This document shows, piece by piece, positions 11,530-25,860 of a stretch of 25,861 nucleotides of DNA. The position numbers and the translations under genes are program-made. The stretch lies in IMG/VR virus record IMGVR_UViG_3300042868_006287, positions 1 to 25,861 of that record, one strand, 5' to 3'. The notes beneath the pieces are model-generated. The model had not been told where the DNA came from. It worked only from the letters and a program-made list of their open reading frames with translations, and made no database searches. The first letter of the stretch is position 1. Every line of letters begins with the position of its first letter. The stretch comes from a virus.

Positions 11530-13587
11530 TTAACCCCGTTCTGAGTTTTTCTCAAGCTGGTGCATCAGCTTGTACATTTTCTTTGCACCCTCACGACGAC
11601 TGCCTTTGCCCGCGCCGCGGACCGCGGCAGCAGTCATGACAAACTCCCCGTCAGAAAGCATGGCAGGGATTGAATCGGACTTCGCGGTCCCCGGGCCGCT
11701 GATCTGGCCAGTACGTCGAGGATACCCGCCCGCGGCCAAACCTGCAATACCGCCTTGGGCCGCATATCGAATCGGGAATTGCGGAGGAGCCAAAGAGGGG
11801 TACATGCTCTGGTTGTTGTACGGCTGATAAATACCCCCTGCACGGTTGGTCAGCGAATTAGGGGGAGGCGTGTACATGGAGGACATGCCCTGAAAGGGGC
11901 CACTTGGTTGTGCCGAGGAGACAAAGGGCATGTTGGAACTGTTTGCATACCCGGGGGATACGTAAGCAGGAAATGGCGTGCTTTGGTCAGAAACAGGCTC
12001 TCCCCGCTCGTTGTACACAACACCGGGCATATTTTGCAAATAGTTCAGGCGTTCAGTACCGTCTCGGCGCATGCGTTCGTCAGCAGAAAGCCGGTTTGAT
12101 TCGGAAACAGGGCCCGATTGCACAGGCTTTTCTGTAAATCCGCCAGCTAGTGCGGTTGCGCCGAGGCCCAACGCAGTGGCAGGACCATAAGTAGACAGAA
12201 TTCCCGGCAACGCTGTTTGATATGCTTTACCTATTATAGAATTTGCAGGCTGGGCCGCTACTTCTGCAGCCGACATTCCAAACCGTTCGCCTACTTTAGC
12301 TAGTGCTTCATTTGCCCCTGCTTCTTGAATAGCCGAGGGGGAGAAATTATTTTTTACAAAACCCGTAGCAGAATCAAACATGCTCTTAGCGGAGTCCAGC
12401 GTACTGGACAGTGGGCCTGTTCCAGCAGAGGCTACATTAGTTGAAGCAGAGGGGTACTTGTAATCTGCCGGAAGATCAAGCATATTAGGCGCAGGCGGCT
12501 GAGCAGCGGAAGCAGAGGGGAACTCGTAGTTTGCCGGAAGATCAAGCATATTAACAGGCGGCTGATTAGCGGAAGGCAACGGCGCAGACGCAGAGCCTCC
12601 CGTTATCGCTGTGGGCGTGCCTGTGGGAGTAGGTGCAAAAACTTTGTTGTATTGCCCTTTAAGCGCCTCCATTGCTGTTGGATTTACGCCGTCAACAGGG
12701 GCTTGTCCCGTCAGGGAAAACTTGGGGCTTATAGCGGACCCTACGCCTTGAATTGCTCCTGCAGTAGCTGCGCCTACTACGCCCTGTTTAATCGCGGTTT
12801 TTAACCCATCCCCAGCCAAAAGAGAAGAACCGGCGCTTGCTGTAAAACCAGTGATGGCGGCTGCAGTAATTGTTCCGGCAGTCGCTCCAAAGAACGCTAC
12901 GGCTGCAGGGCCTAAAAAGAATCCTACGGCCAATCCGGTCACCAATCGGCCTACGGTGCTGCTGGCAAACTTCTTGATAGCCTTACCAAGGCTCTTAAAC
13001 GCCTTCTTCAAGAAAAACTCAGGCAAGCCCGTAACAGGATTGGTAGTGCCCGAGCCACCACGACGGCGCAACATGCGCGCCTCTGCAGGCGTGATGTGCG
13101 CCAGCATCGTGTCACCATTGCGGCCATAACTGGCAATTGCTTTGGCAATAGGCTTAAGCTCCGCAATACCGCCTTGGGCAAACGCCTGAACACCAGCAGG
13201 CTCTGCAATTAACTGATCCACGGCCATGTTCATGGCAGCAAAGAACTGAGGGTCAAACTGCTCGGGCAGCAACTCTTCTGGCGCACCCATCTCTAAATAC
13301 TTTGCACGGACCGCGGCATACTCCTCTGGGTTGGCCAGAATCTCATCAACCATGTTATTGAGCATCTCCAGATCTTCTGGAGACAAATCAATCTGACTCA
13401 AGTCATCCATAAATTGGGCCGTGGCCCGCGGATCGATCTGCGAGGCACCCGCCAACATCTCATCACCAAATTGTTTAGGTGACACCGTCTGACGCATCTG
13501 GTCATAAACGGCCATCGTATTAGGATCGGCAAAAGGATTTGCGCCTTGCTCGGGCATTTCCATTGCGGTTTGGGGTGCTGTGGCCAT
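11530..13587 (-). CDS. Large putative internal virion / ejection protein D with hydrophobic core (685 aa)
   Basis: Residues 1 to 130 are acidic and helical. The segment near 137-145 reads VQAFAQGGIAELKPIAKAIA. A basic helix (LKKAFKSLGKAIKKFASSTV) leads into a long hydrophobic Ala/Gly stretch at about 217-265 (VGFFLGPAAVAFFGATAGTI), which looks able to cross or insert into a membrane. A Pro/Ser/Ala-rich middle carries a 22-residue direct repeat (NMLDLPAxYxxPSAS, DNA 12445-12553). The C-terminus contains AQGGIAGLAAGGYPRRTGQI followed by SDSIPAMLSDGEFVMTAAAV, a segment I recognise from many phage tail, neck and tape-measure-type proteins. Basic helix plus hydrophobic core fits a membrane-penetrating ejection protein. 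AAGGA sits six bases before ATG 13587. Confidence 0.78.
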   Translation of the reverse strand: MATAPQTAMEMPEQGANPFADPNTMAVYDQMRQTVSPKQFGDEMLAGASQIDPRATAQFMDDLSQIDLSPEDLEMLNNMVDEILANPEEYAAVRAKYLEMGAPEELLPEQFDPQFFAAMNMAVDQLIAEPAGVQAFAQGGIAELKPIAKAIASYGRNGDTMLAHITPAEARMLRRRGGSGTTNPVTGLPEFFLKKAFKSLGKAIKKFASSTVGRLVTGLAVGFFLGPAAVAFFGATAGTITAAAITGFTASAGSSLLAGDGLKTAIKQGVVGAATAGAIQGVGSAISPKFSLTGQAPVDGVNPTAMEALKGQYNKVFAPTPTGTPTAITGGSASAPLPSANQPPVNMLDLPANYEFPSASAAQPPAPNMLDLPADYKYPSASTNVASAGTGPLSSTLDSAKSMFDSATGFVKNNFSPSAIQEAGANEALAKVGERFGMSAAEVAAQPANSIIGKAYQTALPGILSTYGPATALGLGATALAGGFTEKPVQSGPVSESNRLSADERMRRDGTERLNYLQNMPGVVYNERGEPVSDQSTPFPAYVSPGYANSSNMPFVSSAQPSGPFQGMSSMYTPPPNSLTNRAGGIYQPYNNQSMYPSLAPPQFPIRYAAQGGIAGLAAGGYPRRTGQISGPGTAKSDSIPAMLSDGEFVMTAAAVRGAGKGSRREGAKKMYKLMHQLEKNSERG
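12445..12553 (-). repeat. 66-bp-period direct repeat inside the 685-residue protein gene
   Basis: Two 43-base copies at 12445-12487 and 12511-12553 differ at only four bases. They encode NMLDLPANYEFPSAS and NMLDLPADYKYPSAS, with a Gln/Pro/Ala linker between. The offset is 66 bases, or 22 codons, so the reading frame is kept. The similarity points to a fairly recent internal duplication. Confidence 0.85.
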
Positions 13588-18834: not shown

Positions 18835-19785
18835 TTACGAGATTGAACCAAGGCGAGTTCCAGTTGCCACATAAGTGATATTGCTGTTTCCAGTTATAGC
18901 GCCGCCGCCAGCGCCGCCAGCGCCGCCAGCGCCTGAAGAGGTATAGGAACCCGTTGCGTTAGCGCCGCTAGACCCCGACGAACCCCAAGTTGCCCCATTG
19001 CCGCCAGTTCCAGCCGTTCTTCCTGCGCCCGAGCCTCCAGCACCGCCACTGCCTGCCGCTGAATTGCTGCCGTTTCCGCCTACCGTCCCCTGATACATAG
19101 TCCATACAGTGCCGCCGTTGTCCAAACCTCCGCGAGCTCCCCCGATTGACGCAGTTGAGCCGGTTCGTCCACCGCCACCGCCACCGCCACCCCACAGCCC
19201 GTTGTTAATTGAAATTCCGCCGCCGCCGCCGCCGCCACCGCCGCCGCCGCCGCCAATCGTTCCGTTGTTTGTGACCGTAAGCGCAACCGACACAGAAAGC
19301 GCGAGGCCGCCGCCACTACCAACCCCACCGGCAGACGAGCCAGAAACGCCGGAGCAGGGATCAAAAAACGAACTTGAGCCCGTTGCACCCGCGCCGCCCA
19401 TACCAATAATGAAGCCGTTATTTACAAGCTCCACTCCGCCGGGGAACGAACCGTTCACAGTCAAACCCGGAGTGCCGGTGCTGTTACTGCTGACGTAGAC
19501 ACCCCCGCTGATCGTGGCAACGACCTTGCTCGACGCGTTCCAACCAGCATTAACAGCCAGAGTTCGCAAGTTGGCATTGGTCTGGTTGCTGCTGATCGTG
19601 AACGCAAACTGGTTGGACTTGCCACTTAAATTGGTAATGGCAATAGCCGCTGGGCTTGCACCGACACCAGCTAGGGTACGAACAGCGGAGTCATTTAAAG
19701 AAATTGTTGCCGTTGAAGATAAGCCCAACTCAGTATTGATCTGAGAGAACGACATCGAACTGCCGGGTACGACTGGAAGCGTCAT
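18835..19785 (-). CDS. Polyglycine-rich adhesin-like tail protein
   Basis: The N-terminal 55 residues (SMSFSQINTELGLSSTATIS, then LNDSAVRTLAGV) form a module typical of phage tail fibres and adhesins. The second half is dominated by glycine: 13 in a row at 178-190, eight more soon after, and many GGxGG and GAGG segments. Glycine-rich motifs of this kind form polyglycine type II helix bundles in adhesins such as gp38 of T-even-like Salmonella phage S16, which recognise host outer membrane proteins through loops between the glycine stretches. The C-terminus reads NSNITYVATGTRLGSIS. It is likely a host-recognition tip protein; homology to gp38 is by type only. AGGAG is five bases upstream of ATG 19785, overlapping the stop of the mini-ORF. 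Confidence 0.82.
   Translation of the reverse strand: MTLPVVPGSSMSFSQINTELGLSSTATISLNDSAVRTLAGVGASPAAIAITNLSGKSNQFAFTISSNQTNANLRTLAVNAGWNASSKVVATISGGVYVSSNSTGTPGLTVNGSFPGGVELVNNGFIIGMGGAGATGSSSFFDPCSGVSGSSAGGVGSGGGLALSVSVALTVTNNGTIGGGGGGGGGGGGGISINNGLWGGGGGGGGRTGSTASIGGARGGLDNGGTVWTMYQGTVGGNGSNSAAGSGGAGGSGAGRTAGTGGNGATWGSSGSSGANATGSYTSSGAGGAGGAGGGAITGNSNITYVATGTRLGSIS
19216..19254 (-). repeat. GCC-type trinucleotide run coding for 13 glycines
   Basis: Between 19216 and 19254 the plus strand is an almost pure (GCC)n run with one ACC. On the coding strand it is 13 consecutive glycine codons. A second shorter run at about 19170-19192 encodes eight more. Gain or loss of triplets would alter adhesin length without breaking the frame. 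Confidence 0.85.
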
Positions 19786-19794
19786 GTGTTCTCC

Positions 19795-19854
19795 TTACGG
19801 TGTGTCGTAGGCGGTGATAAGTTCGATCCAAAGGTCTGGGGAATAGGTGCTCAT
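19795..19854 (-). CDS. Candidate 19-codon mini-ORF between fibre genes
   Basis: On the minus strand ATG 19854-19852 overlaps the tail-fibre stop as ATGA. It is followed by 19 sense codons, giving MSTYSPDLWIELITAYDTP, and TAA at 19797-19795. That stop is part of TAAGGAG, the ribosome site of the next gene. A ribosome leaving the fibre gene could thus pass through the mini-ORF to the adhesin. The N-terminus MSTYxPDxW resembles the start of small phage proteins that are usually longer, so it could be a truncated remnant. This rests on recall and on the start/stop geometry only. Confidence 0.4.
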   Translation of the reverse strand: MSTYSPDLWIELITAYDTP

Positions 19855-21287
19855 TTTTCAATCGCCTTTTTGATTTCTCGGACTTCTTCTCTTAGCTCTT
19901 TAATAGCTTCAATCAGAAGTGGAAGCGCTCTCTCATACCTAACTGTAAGGTATTTTTCGTCGATTGGAGCAGGGGCAACAATTTCTGGCAAAATTGCTTG
20001 CATTTGTTGAGCAGATACGCCAGCCTCACGCTGTACCTTGTACCCCAGAGCTTGGGCTATTTCATTGGCCTCATAGTAGAAACCATCAAGGCTGCACAAC
20101 TTATCAAGCGCATTTTCAATTTTACCCAGACGCGTTTTTAAACGGTCGTCAGAGTAGTACGCGGTGATGTTGTTGGTCGCACGAATCTCACCAGCAGTGC
20201 CAGAACCGGCTGTGCCCACACCAACTGAATTGAATTGCGAGTTTTGTGACGTGCTGGTAAACGTGGCTGCTGAACCCGATGCGTTACCTGTTAAAGAAGC
20301 TGTAATTGTCCCAGCAGAAAAGTTACCCGAGCCATCACGCGCAACGATTGCGGACGCGGTATTTGCATTGGTTGCTGTAGTTGCTGAGTTGCTGACTTTT
20401 AACGCCGTGGAAATTGTTGCCAGCTTGGTGTCCACAATACCAGCAGAAGCGTTGATGTCTGCATTGACAATCACCCCTGCGGCAATACTTGTTGCGTTTC
20501 CAACTGAAGTTACATCTCCGGTCAGGTTGGCGTTGGTAACCACCGTAGCTGCATTACCAACTGAAGTTACGCCCCCAGTAAGGTTAGCGTTTGTAACAAC
20601 TGTAGTCGCGTTACCAACGGAAGTAACCATACCCGTCAAGTTGGCGTTAGTAGTTACGTTACCAGCGGTTAAGCCCGAAGCAGTGCCTGTCAAGTTAGTG
20701 GCTGTGCCGCTAGAGGGTGTACCCAATGCACCGCCGTTAACGACAAACGCCCCGGAAGAACCTGTATTTATCCCAAGTGCAGTAGCTACGCCAGTGCCAA
20801 GAGATGTGATGCCTGTACCGCCAGAAGCAGCCGGGAGCGCAGAACCCAAAGTCAAAGAAGTGAGGTACGAAACCGCATCAACAACGTTTGTGCCATTGTT
20901 GTAAACCAATGTGGCCTTGCCCGCAGGGACAGATATGCCTGTGCCTGAAGTGTTCTTAATCGTTTTGGCTCCAGTGCCGGTGTTATTAATAAGGTAAAAC
21001 TTCTCAATCTGGCAACCAGAACCAAGTATTAAATTACGTACAGAACCAATACCCGTAGAGCTTTCTGTTATGTTTAAACGTAAATTTCTGGCCGCTTGGG
21101 TTGTTGCAGAGTCTGTTAATGTAATTGTTACATCTGCGTCCGTTGCAAAATCTACGGTGGCAGAGCCTGTAATGGCCTCTCCCAAAACTGCATCACCCAG
21201 ATTTGTGTTGGTAAGGGTACCCCATTGACCTGAGTTTTGCCCTGTTTCAAGCAACTCTATTTTAAGTGCTGACCATGTTGATGCCAT
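19851..21287 (-). CDS. Tail fibre with C-terminal S74 intramolecular chaperone
   Basis: This 478-residue fibre protein opens with MASTWSALKIELLETGQNSG and QWGTLTNTNLGDAVLGEAIT, a virion-attachment region common in phage fibres. The shaft is Ser/Thr/Gly/Ala/Val-rich and includes three copies of a 19-residue repeat (TNANLTGxVTSVGNAxxVV, residues 213-269). The C-terminal 100 residues are an S74-type intramolecular chaperone. They contain YYSDDRLK with Ser379 and Lys384, the serine-lysine dyad at the family's usual spacing of five, followed by LDGFYYEAN, GVSAQQMQAILPEIV and LIEAIKELREEVREI. Known S74 domains trimerise the fibre and then cut themselves off before Ser379, leaving about 378 residues. 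The ATG at 21287 follows AGGAG by six bases. Confidence 0.92.
   Translation of the reverse strand: MASTWSALKIELLETGQNSGQWGTLTNTNLGDAVLGEAITGSATVDFATDADVTITLTDSATTQAARNLRLNITESSTGIGSVRNLILGSGCQIEKFYLINNTGTGAKTIKNTSGTGISVPAGKATLVYNNGTNVVDAVSYLTSLTLGSALPAASGGTGITSLGTGVATALGINTGSSGAFVVNGGALGTPSSGTATNLTGTASGLTAGNVTTNANLTGMVTSVGNATTVVTNANLTGGVTSVGNAATVVTNANLTGDVTSVGNATSIAAGVIVNADINASAGIVDTKLATISTALKVSNSATTATNANTASAIVARDGSGNFSAGTITASLTGNASGSAATFTSTSQNSQFNSVGVGTAGSGTAGEIRATNNITAYYSDDRLKTRLGKIENALDKLCSLDGFYYEANEIAQALGYKVQREAGVSAQQMQAILPEIVAPAPIDEKYLTVRYERALPLLIEAIKELREEVREIKKAIEK
20481..20651 (-). repeat. 57-bp tandem repeat (three units) in tail fibre shaft
   Basis: Three consecutive 57-base units encode TNANLTGMVTSVGNATTVV, TNANLTGGVTSVGNAATVV and TNANLTGDVTSVGNATSIA (residues 213-269 of the fibre). 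They differ mainly in a few residues, indicating tandem duplication. A trimeric beta-rich shaft is likely. Confidence 0.85.
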
Positions 21288-21296
21288 TTTTAACTC

Positions 21297-22577
21297 CTAA
21301 GTCGTTGCAATGGCAGTCCAACCTGCCGTTTGCGTGTTGCCGATATTTTGCCAGTTTGCAGTCTGTGTATTATCAATTATTTCCCAGAATGGTCGTGCAG
21401 TCAACCCATCTGTGCCTGTTGCTAACTCGTTAATAGACGCAATAAACGCCGCCGCTGCTACTAAGGTATCCGCGCTTACCGCTGTTTCCGTTACCGATGC
21501 ATTAAAACTTGCTTGCGCCGTAATTACATCTGCCCCCGTAGCGGTTTCTGTAATTGCCGCATTAACTACAACTACCGCCGTTACTGCATCTGTGCCTGTC
21601 GCCGTTTCTTGTATATTTCCAAAATATACAAGACTTCCGGTTATGTTATCTGTTCCGGTTGCTGTCTCTCCAACTGTAGCCGCGTACACAGGTAGGCTTG
21701 TTATGTCATCTAATCCAGTGGCTGTTTCGGCTACCAATACTGCAAAATTAACAGTAGAAACAATGGCATCGCTACCCGTACTTGTCTCGGTAACAGAAAC
21801 TCCAACACCGTTTGACCCCGTTATACCGTCTGTTCCTGTAGATAATTCTGAAACAGATGCTACATAAATGGGTACAGAACTAATCGCATCCGTACCTGTA
21901 GCTGTTTCGCTAACAGAAACTCCAACACCGTTTGACCCCGTTATAGCGTCTGTTCCCGTTGCACTTTCAGTAACCGAGGAACTCAATGTAAGTAATGAAT
22001 TAGCGGCATCTAATCCTGTAGCTGTCTCGGTAACCTGCGCCGCAAACGCTGCTACCGCTACAACATCGTCTGTTCCCGTCGCCGTTTCGCTTACTGTTGG
22101 ATTAAGCGTTAAAGTAGAAACTACCGCATCAGTAGCAGTGGCTAATTCACCTTCTCCGCCCCACGAATTACTACCCCAAGCGCTTTCGCCCCAGCCCGTG
22201 CCCGCTATTACCGCATCGTATACTTCACCACCTACTGTTGCATCTGTACCCGTGGCAGTCTCAGCAATTACCGCGCCTACAGCTATGACCGAAGAAATTG
22301 CGTCTGTTCCTGTGCTTGCCTCTGTTACCGTTGCAGCATATAGCGGCCCGCCTTCTGTAGCGTCTGTCCCTGTTGACGTTTCCGTTATGCTTGAGGTAAA
22401 TATCTTACCCGCTGCAATTACATCTGATCCAGTAGCTGTCTCGCTAACAGCGGGGGTTACACTTAATGCAGAAACAACTGCGTCTGCTCCAGTGGAGGTT
22501 TCGGCTATGGTGCTGTCGTAGGCGACAAAGCCACCCCAACCGCTGTCACCCCATGCGCCGTCACCCCACCCAGCCAT
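21297..22577 (-). CDS. Repeat-rich fibre or spike-like protein with Trp-Gly cassettes
   Basis: The 426-residue protein starts with MAGWGDGAWGDSGWGG. Eighteen units of about 20 residues follow, each close to xxxVxETATGTDAIxxxxxx. A second Trp-Gly cassette (GWGESAWGSNSWGG) takes the place of one unit after the fifth. The repeats are rich in Thr, Ala and Val and have no charged core, suggesting an elongated beta-solenoid or fibre. The tail has a short repeat (IxNTQTAxW twice) ending TAIATT. I recognise no enzyme or chaperone domain. Its place between small virion-type genes and the S74 fibre fits a tail or capsid fibre. The ribosome site (GGCGG) is weak. Related-looking repeats occur in uncharacterised environmental phage proteins. 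Confidence 0.75.
   Translation of the reverse strand: MAGWGDGAWGDSGWGGFVAYDSTIAETSTGADAVVSALSVTPAVSETATGSDVIAAGKIFTSSITETSTGTDATEGGPLYAATVTEASTGTDAISSVIAVGAVIAETATGTDATVGGEVYDAVIAGTGWGESAWGSNSWGGEGELATATDAVVSTLTLNPTVSETATGTDDVVAVAAFAAQVTETATGLDAANSLLTLSSSVTESATGTDAITGSNGVGVSVSETATGTDAISSVPIYVASVSELSTGTDGITGSNGVGVSVTETSTGSDAIVSTVNFAVLVAETATGLDDITSLPVYAATVGETATGTDNITGSLVYFGNIQETATGTDAVTAVVVVNAAITETATGADVITAQASFNASVTETAVSADTLVAAAAFIASINELATGTDGLTARPFWEIIDNTQTANWQNIGNTQTAGWTAIATT
21384..22520 (-). repeat. 60-bp-period tandem repeat array (18 units) in the fibre gene
   Basis: Eighteen protein units with a 20-residue period are encoded, each centred on ETATGTD or a close variant. The array is interrupted once by a Trp-Gly cassette (about 22155-22197). 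Units diverge mostly at flanking positions, except for one pair 120 bases apart that is nearly identical (21791-21836 and 21911-21956). The array is coding and in frame throughout. Confidence 0.9.
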
Positions 22578-22578
22578 A

Positions 22579-23157
22579 TTAAGCCGCCAAGCTGAATGTG
22601 TAAGTTACAGACAAGGTATCGCTGTTCACCACAGAACGGTCGCCGGGTGAGCCAAAATCTGCCGCAGAGAACAAAGTCCCAGTTGTACCACTCTTAGTAC
22701 TATCACTGGTCAGGAAAGCCCCGCCCACAGTCGCTGTGCCGTTGATGTTAAACACAGCAGGAGAAGCTGAGTTAGTTACCACGGAGGGATTAGCGGTTGT
22801 AGCTGTTACAAAAGTAGCGGTCACGCGGTTAGCGTTGCTGTATGCAGTAACTTCTGTCCAACCAGCATGGGAAGCCATTGTGTCGCCAGCCGCAGGTGTA
22901 TTAGAAGCGCCAGCGCCGTACAAACCAAGATACCAAGTGGTAATCTGGCTCACTGAAGTCAAAGCACTGCCAGCCATATACTGGAGGCCAACGTTGACTA
23001 CAAGATTCTTAGACTGTGCTTCCCACTTCAAGTTGCCGTCTTTGTCATGGCATTTAATTTCAAATAGGCCGGTTGCCTTTGCGCCCTCACCGGCTTTGGT
23101 ATTACAAGTTAAACCGCTAGAAACTACGTCAGTGGCTTTGGTTTTTTCAATAGTCAT
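22579..23157 (-). CDS. Putative virion structural protein (192 aa)
   Basis: I start at ATG 23157 (MTIEKTKATDVVSSGLTCNT), which has AGGAG five bases upstream overlapping the previous gene's stop; a longer frame to 23199 lacks a ribosome site. The region IKCHDKDGNLKWEAQSKNLV and then VNVGLQYMAGSALTSVSQIT resembles beta-sandwich proteins common among uncharacterised phage virion genes, as does the next segment (TWYLGLYGAGASNTPAAGDT). The second half is Ser/Thr/Ala-rich and beta-like, ending SLSVTYTFSLAA-like. I recognise no enzymatic motif. Two cysteines (C18 and one in IKCHD) are present. It is probably a head, neck or tail decoration protein, by composition and position between other virion genes. 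Confidence 0.8.
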   Translation of the reverse strand: MTIEKTKATDVVSSGLTCNTKAGEGAKATGLFEIKCHDKDGNLKWEAQSKNLVVNVGLQYMAGSALTSVSQITTWYLGLYGAGASNTPAAGDTMASHAGWTEVTAYSNANRVTATFVTATTANPSVVTNSASPAVFNINGTATVGGAFLTSDSTKSGTTGTLFSAADFGSPGDRSVVNSDTLSVTYTFSLAA

Positions 23158-23167
23158 GATGACTCCT

Positions 23168-23584
23168 TTAATTAATTCGTATAAGCGCGTTATCCGCATT
23201 GTTAGGCGGGAATTGAATTTGAAATTGCTGGTTTACTGTGGTTTGATCTACCCCAAAGTTCAGCACCCCTATTGATTTATTACTTTTAGAGAAATTATAA
23301 AGTAGTGCCCCCCGTGTTGTAAAGGATGAACCATTCCACGTTGGATTGCTAAAAGACACATACGCAACGTTTCCCGTCAGGGTTACCGTAACCCCTGTAA
23401 GAATTTCTCCGCCTGCTGTATAGGCTGTTCCAGATGTTTCATTGGAGGTACTGTATACAGTGGTGGTTTCATCTAGCGAAGCAGCAGACGTATACAACGC
23501 AATTTTTATTGTATCCACACTAAAATCATGCACAGCCAGCAAAAGCTGTTGTTTAAAACTGTTGGTCAATCCTGCTGTGATCAT
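23168..23584 (-). CDS. Conserved virion-type protein (138 aa), unknown role
   Basis: This 138-residue protein begins MITAGLTNSFKQQLLLAVHD. It continues through SVDTIKIALYTSAASLDETT, GYTAGGEILTG-like and TRGALLYNFSKSNKSIGVLN patterns. I recognise this as a widespread, unannotated phage family with an opening like MITAGLTNSFKxELLxGVHD. It is beta-rich and lacks a membrane segment or signal peptide. Conserved position near adaptor-like genes suggests a neck or tail component. GAGG five bases before ATG 23584 is the likely ribosome site. The gene ends with TAA at 23168-23170, whose A's form part of AGGAG of the next gene, so translation passes straight on. Confidence 0.82.
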   Translation of the reverse strand: MITAGLTNSFKQQLLLAVHDFSVDTIKIALYTSAASLDETTTVYSTSNETSGTAYTAGGEILTGVTVTLTGNVAYVSFSNPTWNGSSFTTRGALLYNFSKSNKSIGVLNFGVDQTTVNQQFQIQFPPNNADNALIRIN

Positions 23585-25445: not shown

Positions 25446-25667
25446 TTAATAGATAGTTGCTTTTTGAGCACGGGCTGCACCTACGCCGCGCACAGAAACA
25501 GTTTCACCAGACACTGTCTTCTTAACAGGCTGACTCATGGTCTTGCCCTGTGGGCCGGCCATGTCGGCAACGCCGCCTGCAGCATAGCCTTTTTTCTTCA
25601 TGCCGCCGCTGGCACCCATCTTAGATTTCATCATGCCACCGCTGGCCATCATTTTAGATTTCATCAT
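25446..25667 (-). CDS. Met/Lys/Gly-rich microprotein with YAAGG motif
   Basis: I start this 73-residue protein at ATG 25667, because GGAG lies seven bases upstream; a longer frame extends to 25736 but overlaps the preceding gene in a different frame with no ribosome site. It begins MMKSKMMASGGMMKSKMGAS, then GGMKKKGYAAGGVADM, and ends VRGVGAARAQKATIY. The repeated (M/K)SKM(M/G)ASGGM unit is like the microprotein at 3949-4149. The C-terminal pattern VRGxGAAxxxKxT is familiar from many small phage proteins. Function unknown; a basic structural or packaging-linked peptide is a possibility. The first 14 bases overlap the end of the gene at the right edge. Confidence 0.78.
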   Translation of the reverse strand: MMKSKMMASGGMMKSKMGASGGMKKKGYAAGGVADMAGPQGKTMSQPVKKTVSGETVSVRGVGAARAQKATIY

Positions 25668-25860
25668 CTTTTTTCTCCTGATAGAGGTTGTTAAAAGTTT
25701 CTTCCGCATCCATGTACGAGTCATCTTGCTCTGCACAATGAATCCATTGGTTAGGCCTGAAATCAGGCGCTCCCTGTCCTGTAACCCAATAAGCGGGACT
25801 CGTTACACGGACCCTGTTGTTAGGCAGCGCCACAATATTCCCTGTCCATTTGCCCGCATC
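25654..25860 (-). CDS. C-terminal 68 codons of an unknown late gene (start outside window)
   Basis: I read this frame from the right edge: DAGKWTGNIVALPNNRVRVT, then SPAYWVTGQGAPDFRPNQWI, and ending NLYQEKKDDEI before TAA at 25656-25654. It is open from the window edge with sensible composition, and its stop lies 14 bases inside the next gene. It is therefore a partial, real coding region. I do not recognise the family, although the position just before adaptor-like genes suggests a head or head-completion protein. The acidic C-terminus (DDSYMDAEETFNNLYQEKKD) could be a flexible tail. Frame confidence is good; function is unknown. Confidence 0.7.
   Translation of the reverse strand, partial: DAGKWTGNIVALPNNRVRVTSPAYWVTGQGAPDFRPNQWIHCAEQDDSYMDAEETFNNLYQEKKDDEI

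Follow-up and report, generated by a model that had tools for sequence, protein, structure and literature searches.

What does a phage gene built of 20-residue repeats encode, and how does it change from one related phage to the next? We addressed this for a gene in a window of 25,861 nucleotides, the whole of the DNA analysed here (IMG/VR virus record IMGVR_UViG_3300042868_006287, positions 1 to 25,861). The gene probably encodes a tail-fibre shaft of a short-tailed phage from fresh water, and the fibre-like character proposed for it by the initial annotation was borne out in that a repeat shaft lies beside a tail-fibre gene.

Architecture of the repeat protein

The gene (21297..22577, minus strand, as are all features described below unless stated) has an ATG start and encodes a protein of 426 aa with a net charge of -46, which contains 1 Lys, 1 Arg, 23 Glu and 25 Asp. 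Two long plus-strand ORFs over the gene (21310-21867 and 21868-22521) were taken as antisense by-products of the biased repeat. We anchored the units on the E of ETATGTD, which gave the order cassette, five units, internal cassette, thirteen units and a W..I..Q..W tail, with 18 units in total. The N-terminal Trp-Gly cassette MAGWGDGAWGDSGWGG (aa 1-16; 22530..22577) is separated by a half-unit (aa 17-25) from shaft 1, whose five 20-aa units (aa 26-125; 22203..22502) start at residues 26, 46, 66, 86 and 106. An internal Trp-Gly cassette GTGWGESAWGSNSWGGEG of 18 aa follows (aa 126-143; 22149..22202), and the anchor step across it is 38 because these 18 aa replace one 20-aa unit. The thirteen 20-aa units of shaft 2 (aa 144-403; 21369..22148) start at residues 144, 164 and so on to 384. 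The C-terminal tail of 11-residue W..I..xxQ repeats (aa 396-426 plus stop; 21297..21392), recognised from its sequence and its match to phage DSL-LC04, continues directly out of the last of these units as PFWEIID-NTQTANWQNIGNTQTAGWTAIATT. Coordinates, strand, length and counts all matched the initial annotation of two modules, each a Trp-Gly cassette followed by 20-residue units, five in the first and thirteen in the second, and the middle cassette indeed sits in the slot of one unit.

The self-identity of the protein was 0.355 at lag 20, 0.350 at lag 40 and 0.314 at lag 60, compared to a mean of 0.106 (SD 0.014) at lag 20 for shuffled sequences. At the DNA level the gene's own units were on average only 49.5% identical, and the array is therefore old and diverged. 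A 2 x 40-aa higher-order repeat within aa 184-263 departs from this; Tandem Repeats Finder reported a period of 120 at 21765-22034, which corresponds to a two-unit higher-order repeat. Repeats also occur in other genes of the window: a small basic protein (25446-25736, minus strand) has 11-residue repeats KSKMMASGGMM with a 33-bp tandem repeat at 25593-25667, and a 685-aa protein weakly similar to tape-measure proteins contains a 66-bp tandem repeat of the PPVNMLDLPANYEFPSASAAQ type at 12443-12575.

Sequence searches of Pfam, PHROGs, NCBIfam and the PDB with the repeat protein or members of its family gave no family match. Weak matches of one or two members (SVA, fructuronate reductase) were taken as composition noise; designed helical repeats matched in the PDB were regarded as coincidental. 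With tblastn, isolated phages gave no match up to E 10, presumably owing to low-complexity masking of the query, and the open-access literature on repeat-number or Trp-Gly phage fibres contained no description of the family.

Unit-wise variation, block relocation and gene exchange among relatives

Relatives were collected by scanning IMG/VR with four queries and fetching the best 80 of 200-430 candidates per scan. This yielded at least 169 distinct complete relatives, whose lengths differ by whole units almost throughout; of the 70 closest proteins, 69 had integer unit counts and the remaining one includes a lone 19-residue unit. A scan of the collection of bacterial and archaeal genomes turned up no relative, and a prophage origin was rejected on this basis. 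The gene belongs to a large family of phage shaft proteins that had no annotation and was seen here in viral contigs only.

Architectures were counted in the 162 fetched relatives with a countable array and an upstream neighbour, with an automatic unit counter that is approximate where a unit's anchor is lost. Single-cassette forms had 10 (n=60), 14 (n=29), 15 (n=9) or other numbers of units (n=6), and two-cassette forms had 5/9 (n=50), 9/9 (n=3), 5/13 (n=2), 4/9 (n=2) or 10/9 (n=1) units before and after the internal cassette, proportions that depend on our choice of queries and should not be read as a census. The window's own 5+13 form was rare among the fetched relatives, as were 9+9 and 10+9, and totals of 10, 14 or 18 units accounted for roughly 89% (144/162) of the distinct relatives counted.

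The internal cassette was present in about 60 of the 169 distinct relatives and is a real, optional module boundary. About 109 of the 169 carried a single cassette, and because these form the majority of the relatives fetched, two head-plus-shaft modules, as first proposed, are not the basic design. Nor was the term "head" supported for the cassette: it occurs at the N-terminus, internally, doubled at the N-terminus (L036 and L039) and near the C-terminus (L353), and no globular head was shown. W4, G5 and W14 of the N-terminal cassette did not vary across 50 relatives. The C-terminal 11-residue repeat is present in one to about five copies (L236, L243, L285 and L353), and L353 has an additional Trp-Gly cassette within its tail.

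Unit order varied as well. A block of four units (aa 184-263; 21789..22028), located in shaft 2 of the window protein, was found in shaft 1 of relatives L002, L003, L018 and L024, with nucleotide identities to the window of 98-100% in L002 and L003 and 90-97% in L018. L018 and L024 belong to another lineage, in which the upstream flank (measured in L018) shares 86% identity with that of the window. Relative to the window gene, two neighbouring segments have changed places in L003, so that the block has left shaft 2 and follows the first unit of shaft 1, ahead of the second. BLAST of the window against L003 gave pieces of 94-99% identity in exchanged order, with the same total length and flanks that are 97% identical. 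Counterpart units in the two genes shared 92-100% DNA identity; only the internal cassette (85%) and the unit that precedes it (78%) fell below this range. Unit-by-unit DNA comparison further showed that the unit at aa 164-183 (22029..22088) is present twice in L002, once per shaft, with both copies 100% identical in nucleotide sequence to the window. A diverged copy of the block, rotated by two units, was found in L005.

Let 0 stand for the first unit, A for the segment that follows it (four units, the cassette and two more units) and B for the four-unit block; the order is then 0-A-B-rest in the window, 0-B-A-rest in L003 and 0-(last unit of A)-B-A-rest in L002. We infer that all three orders would follow if A-B had been duplicated in tandem and parts then deleted, with L002, which has kept the duplicated unit, as the expected intermediate. 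The earlier suggestion of evolution by repeated duplication is supported in this form, with whole units being duplicated and moved. Every relative with a differing order is a metagenome contig, and the orders might be artefacts of assembling a repetitive gene. We consider this highly improbable: units differ by about 50% at the nucleotide level and short reads can therefore order them, and the block lies in shaft 1 in several contigs from two lineages (L003, L004, L018, L019, L020 and L024), all with intact reading frames.

Exchange also extended to the entire gene. In L118 the upstream 1888 nt are 97.6% and the start of the downstream gene 97.7% identical to the window, whereas the repeat gene between them is a 14-unit, one-cassette version that aligns to the window over 472 nt only, at 79.7% identity. 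The comparison indicates that the repeat gene was replaced between near-identical flanks. On a tree of the upstream neighbour protein, 30 architecture changes were needed compared to 85 with shuffled labels, the former being a rough number because many branches are weak. As near-identical phages have it with whole units gained, lost or relocated, the gene is a surface part that reshuffles quickly and not a new kind of system. The conserved ETATGxD codons would be the sites between which recombination alters shaft length and unit order in whole units, and near-identical phages swap complete gene versions.

Such whole-gene exchange between near-identical phages, together with rapid unit turnover, is typical of host-contact proteins, and Trp-rich patches, as present in the cassettes, often bind sugars. 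The repeat protein might accordingly be a host-binding adhesin, whose Thr/Ser faces and Trp cassettes bind glycans and whose shuffling generates host-range variants. We regard this as doubtful: the most variable sequence is the C-terminus encoded by the next gene, the conserved positions of the units look structural, and no known binding domain was found. In the fibre-shaft reading that we favour, the protein may help the phage to reach or bind its host.

Predicted fold and genomic setting of the shaft

The unit consensus is E-T-A-T-G-T-D-A-V-x-A-x-x-x-F-x-A-x-V-x. Over 1294 distinct units, the conserved positions were mostly odd (1, 3, 5, 7, 9, 11, 15, 17 and 19, occupied by E, A, G, D, V/I, A/S, F/Y/V, A/S and V/I, respectively), and even positions were largely Thr/Ser. 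Lys and Arg were almost absent, and E1 was found in 98% and D7 in 96% of units, percentages that are inflated because the pattern used to select units includes E1 and D7 and predetermines part of positions 1-7. For the window protein as well as for a 10-unit relative, monomer modelling with AlphaFold2 placed two beta-strands in each unit at a mean pLDDT of 58, with the cassettes and most of the tail below or near 50. Disorder was rejected on the regular strands in both models; together with a unit number that varies and a module boundary that is present in relatives, this is the opposite of the disordered, constant and boundary-free array that would have spoken against the initial annotation. 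In Foldseek searches of BFVD and the PDB no match fell below E 0.001, and the top, non-significant matches of these low-confidence models were mostly beta-helices.

The new fibre fold raised in the initial annotation is a conjecture. It is reasonable to suppose a beta-solenoid in which each unit makes one turn, and the protein may instead form a trimeric beta-fibre. A more specific version, in which a right-handed beta-solenoid has one 20-residue turn per unit and stacked Glu1 and Asp7 are neutralised by calcium, would agree with the near-invariance of both residues, the scarcity of Lys and Arg, the net charge, the two strands per unit in both models and the beta-helical character of the top Foldseek matches. 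We advance it tentatively and think it somewhat unlikely, as Foldseek gave nothing significant, the frequencies of E1 and D7 are inflated by selection, these residues may merely be exposed in turns, and the units have no RTX motif GGxGxD. Less likely again is a fibrous beta fold of a kind not yet described, in which inside and outside positions alternate without a break and carboxylate pairs are stacked, combined with a shaft length quantised in four-unit steps and with 10, 14 and 18 units arrived at again and again through recombination; if true, phages would tune fibre reach by adding four-unit blocks, or moving them between two shafts, across a Trp-Gly joint.

The conserved upstream partner gene (22579..23199), which adjoins the repeat gene in relatives, belongs to phrog_8123, and a homologue was found upstream in 163 of the 169 fetched loci. 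The downstream gene (19851..21287) encodes a tail fibre with an S74 intramolecular chaperone according to Pfam and PHROGs; direct reading of close relatives showed a conserved GTWG...N fibre N-terminus and very different C-termini. The stop codon of the repeat gene overlaps the likely ribosome-binding site of this fibre gene in TAGGAG (21294..21299), an arrangement found in 70 of the 70 close relatives fetched and in 148 of 169 overall, and this shared element suggests that the two are translationally coupled. The surroundings also include two SU10-type adaptor proteins upstream, and a lysozyme and a stabilisation-type protein downstream. The S74 fibre has 57-bp (19-residue) repeats of its own, LTG.VTSVGNATTVVTNAN, at 20493-20652. 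The gene next but one to the repeat gene (18835-19785) encodes a 316-aa protein with long polyglycine runs, which resembles the glycine-rich HTVC023P gp59-62 and has a very weak match to the host-specificity fibre family phrog_2056 (E 0.42).

The repeat gene lies a few genes past the head-tail adaptor proteins, in a region where head and tail genes are mixed, and the S74 neighbour may be the real fibre, with the repeat protein a whisker-like decoration of the head or neck. We judge this quite unlikely, since the gene directly adjoins, and is coupled by stop codon and Shine-Dalgarno sequence to, a tail-fibre gene of variable C-terminus, and since the corresponding position in Roseobacter phage CRP-901 is occupied by an annotated tail fibre (PMC10149686).

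We think it probable, with a good measure of remaining doubt, that the protein is an elongated beta-rich tail appendage, a fibre shaft, that evolves by unit recombination. This reading draws on the lag-20 periodicity, the whole-unit architecture in 169 relatives, the block swap, the L118 replacement and the at least 30 architecture changes compared to 85 with shuffled labels; on the synteny with phrog_8123 and the GTWG...N fibre, and the comparable gene pairs in HTVC027P, HTVC023P and DSL-LC04; and on the CRP-901 tail-fibre position, the alternating beta pattern and the two strands per unit. Against it stand the lack of a match in Pfam, PHROGs, NCBIfam and the PDB and the low confidence of the models. 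In such a shaft the two constant ends, a Trp-Gly cassette at the N-terminus and a W..Q..W tail at the C-terminus, would probably serve as attachment points for the phage tail and for the partner fibre of the adjoining downstream gene. The 20-residue units would build a rigid rod with odd positions facing inward and even, Thr/Ser positions outward, and the internal cassette would be a second module insertable along it.

Comparison with known phages and fibres

As part of the same reading, the window phage is probably a podovirus akin in its structural genes to Pelagibacter phages HTVC023P and HTVC027P and to DSL-LC04. The repeat gene adjoins a GTWG-type fibre gene downstream of adaptor genes, as in HTVC023P/DSL-LC04-type phages, and counterparts in isolated phages were located by gene position. 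In DSL-LC04 (OR003939), where gene order is similar, this position is occupied by the hypothetical protein WJZ48131.1. Together with its IMG/VR relatives, this protein likewise has Trp-Gly cassettes both N-terminally and within the shaft, repeats that are short and of beta type, and a C-terminal W..Q..W tail homologous to the window's (BLASTP E 7e-05; hhalign probability 93.6%, E 2.2e-07). However, its units are 22 aa long (VTGVQATGQVGTVTV type), are not acidic and cannot be aligned to the 20-aa ETATGTD units; conversely, the 22-aa VTG..VG unit is absent from the window protein, whose units are of the ETATGTDAV type. HTVC027P gp68 lies directly upstream of a GTWG-type fibre gene, as in the window, and has WG cassettes but another repeat sequence, and HTVC023P gp68, just before its GTWG-type fibre gene, has 22-aa repeats without WG cassettes; both are annotated as hypothetical only. 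Thus, across DSL-LC04, HTVC027P, HTVC023P and CRP-901, ends and position are largely shared whereas the shaft repeat differs.

Thin shafts of short beta repeats, whose number differs among relatives, are also found in the adenovirus fibre, reovirus sigma1 and the T4 long tail fibre. Shaft units of adenovirus and reovirus are about 15 residues long and have a typical Gly/Pro turn; in contrast, the window units have exactly 20 residues, conserved E and D and inserted Trp-Gly cassettes, and with proline at about 1% of unit residues they do not resemble a triple beta-spiral. The ETATGTDAV consensus and period of 20 likewise differ from the GGxGxD nonapeptides of RTX calcium beta-rolls, and the Peptidase_S74 domain has no Pfam match in the repeat protein and sits in the next gene.

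The shaft-protein family is newly defined, being absent from Pfam, PHROGs and NCBIfam, and it offers an unusually clear natural record of phage fibre length change: close phages have different numbers of whole units, carry unit blocks at new places, with one intermediate preserved, or have had the entire gene replaced. Fibre reach, flexibility and host range thereby become testable questions, and protein engineers gain a regular scaffold that tolerates reshuffling. Recombination in a tail-fibre gene, as part of the mosaic evolution of phage tail fibres, is reported for Litunavirus (PMC9786124). By comparison, recombination in the window family takes place inside the shaft, in whole 20-aa units and in blocks between two shafts, and the added value lies in the family and in this record of whole-unit recombination.
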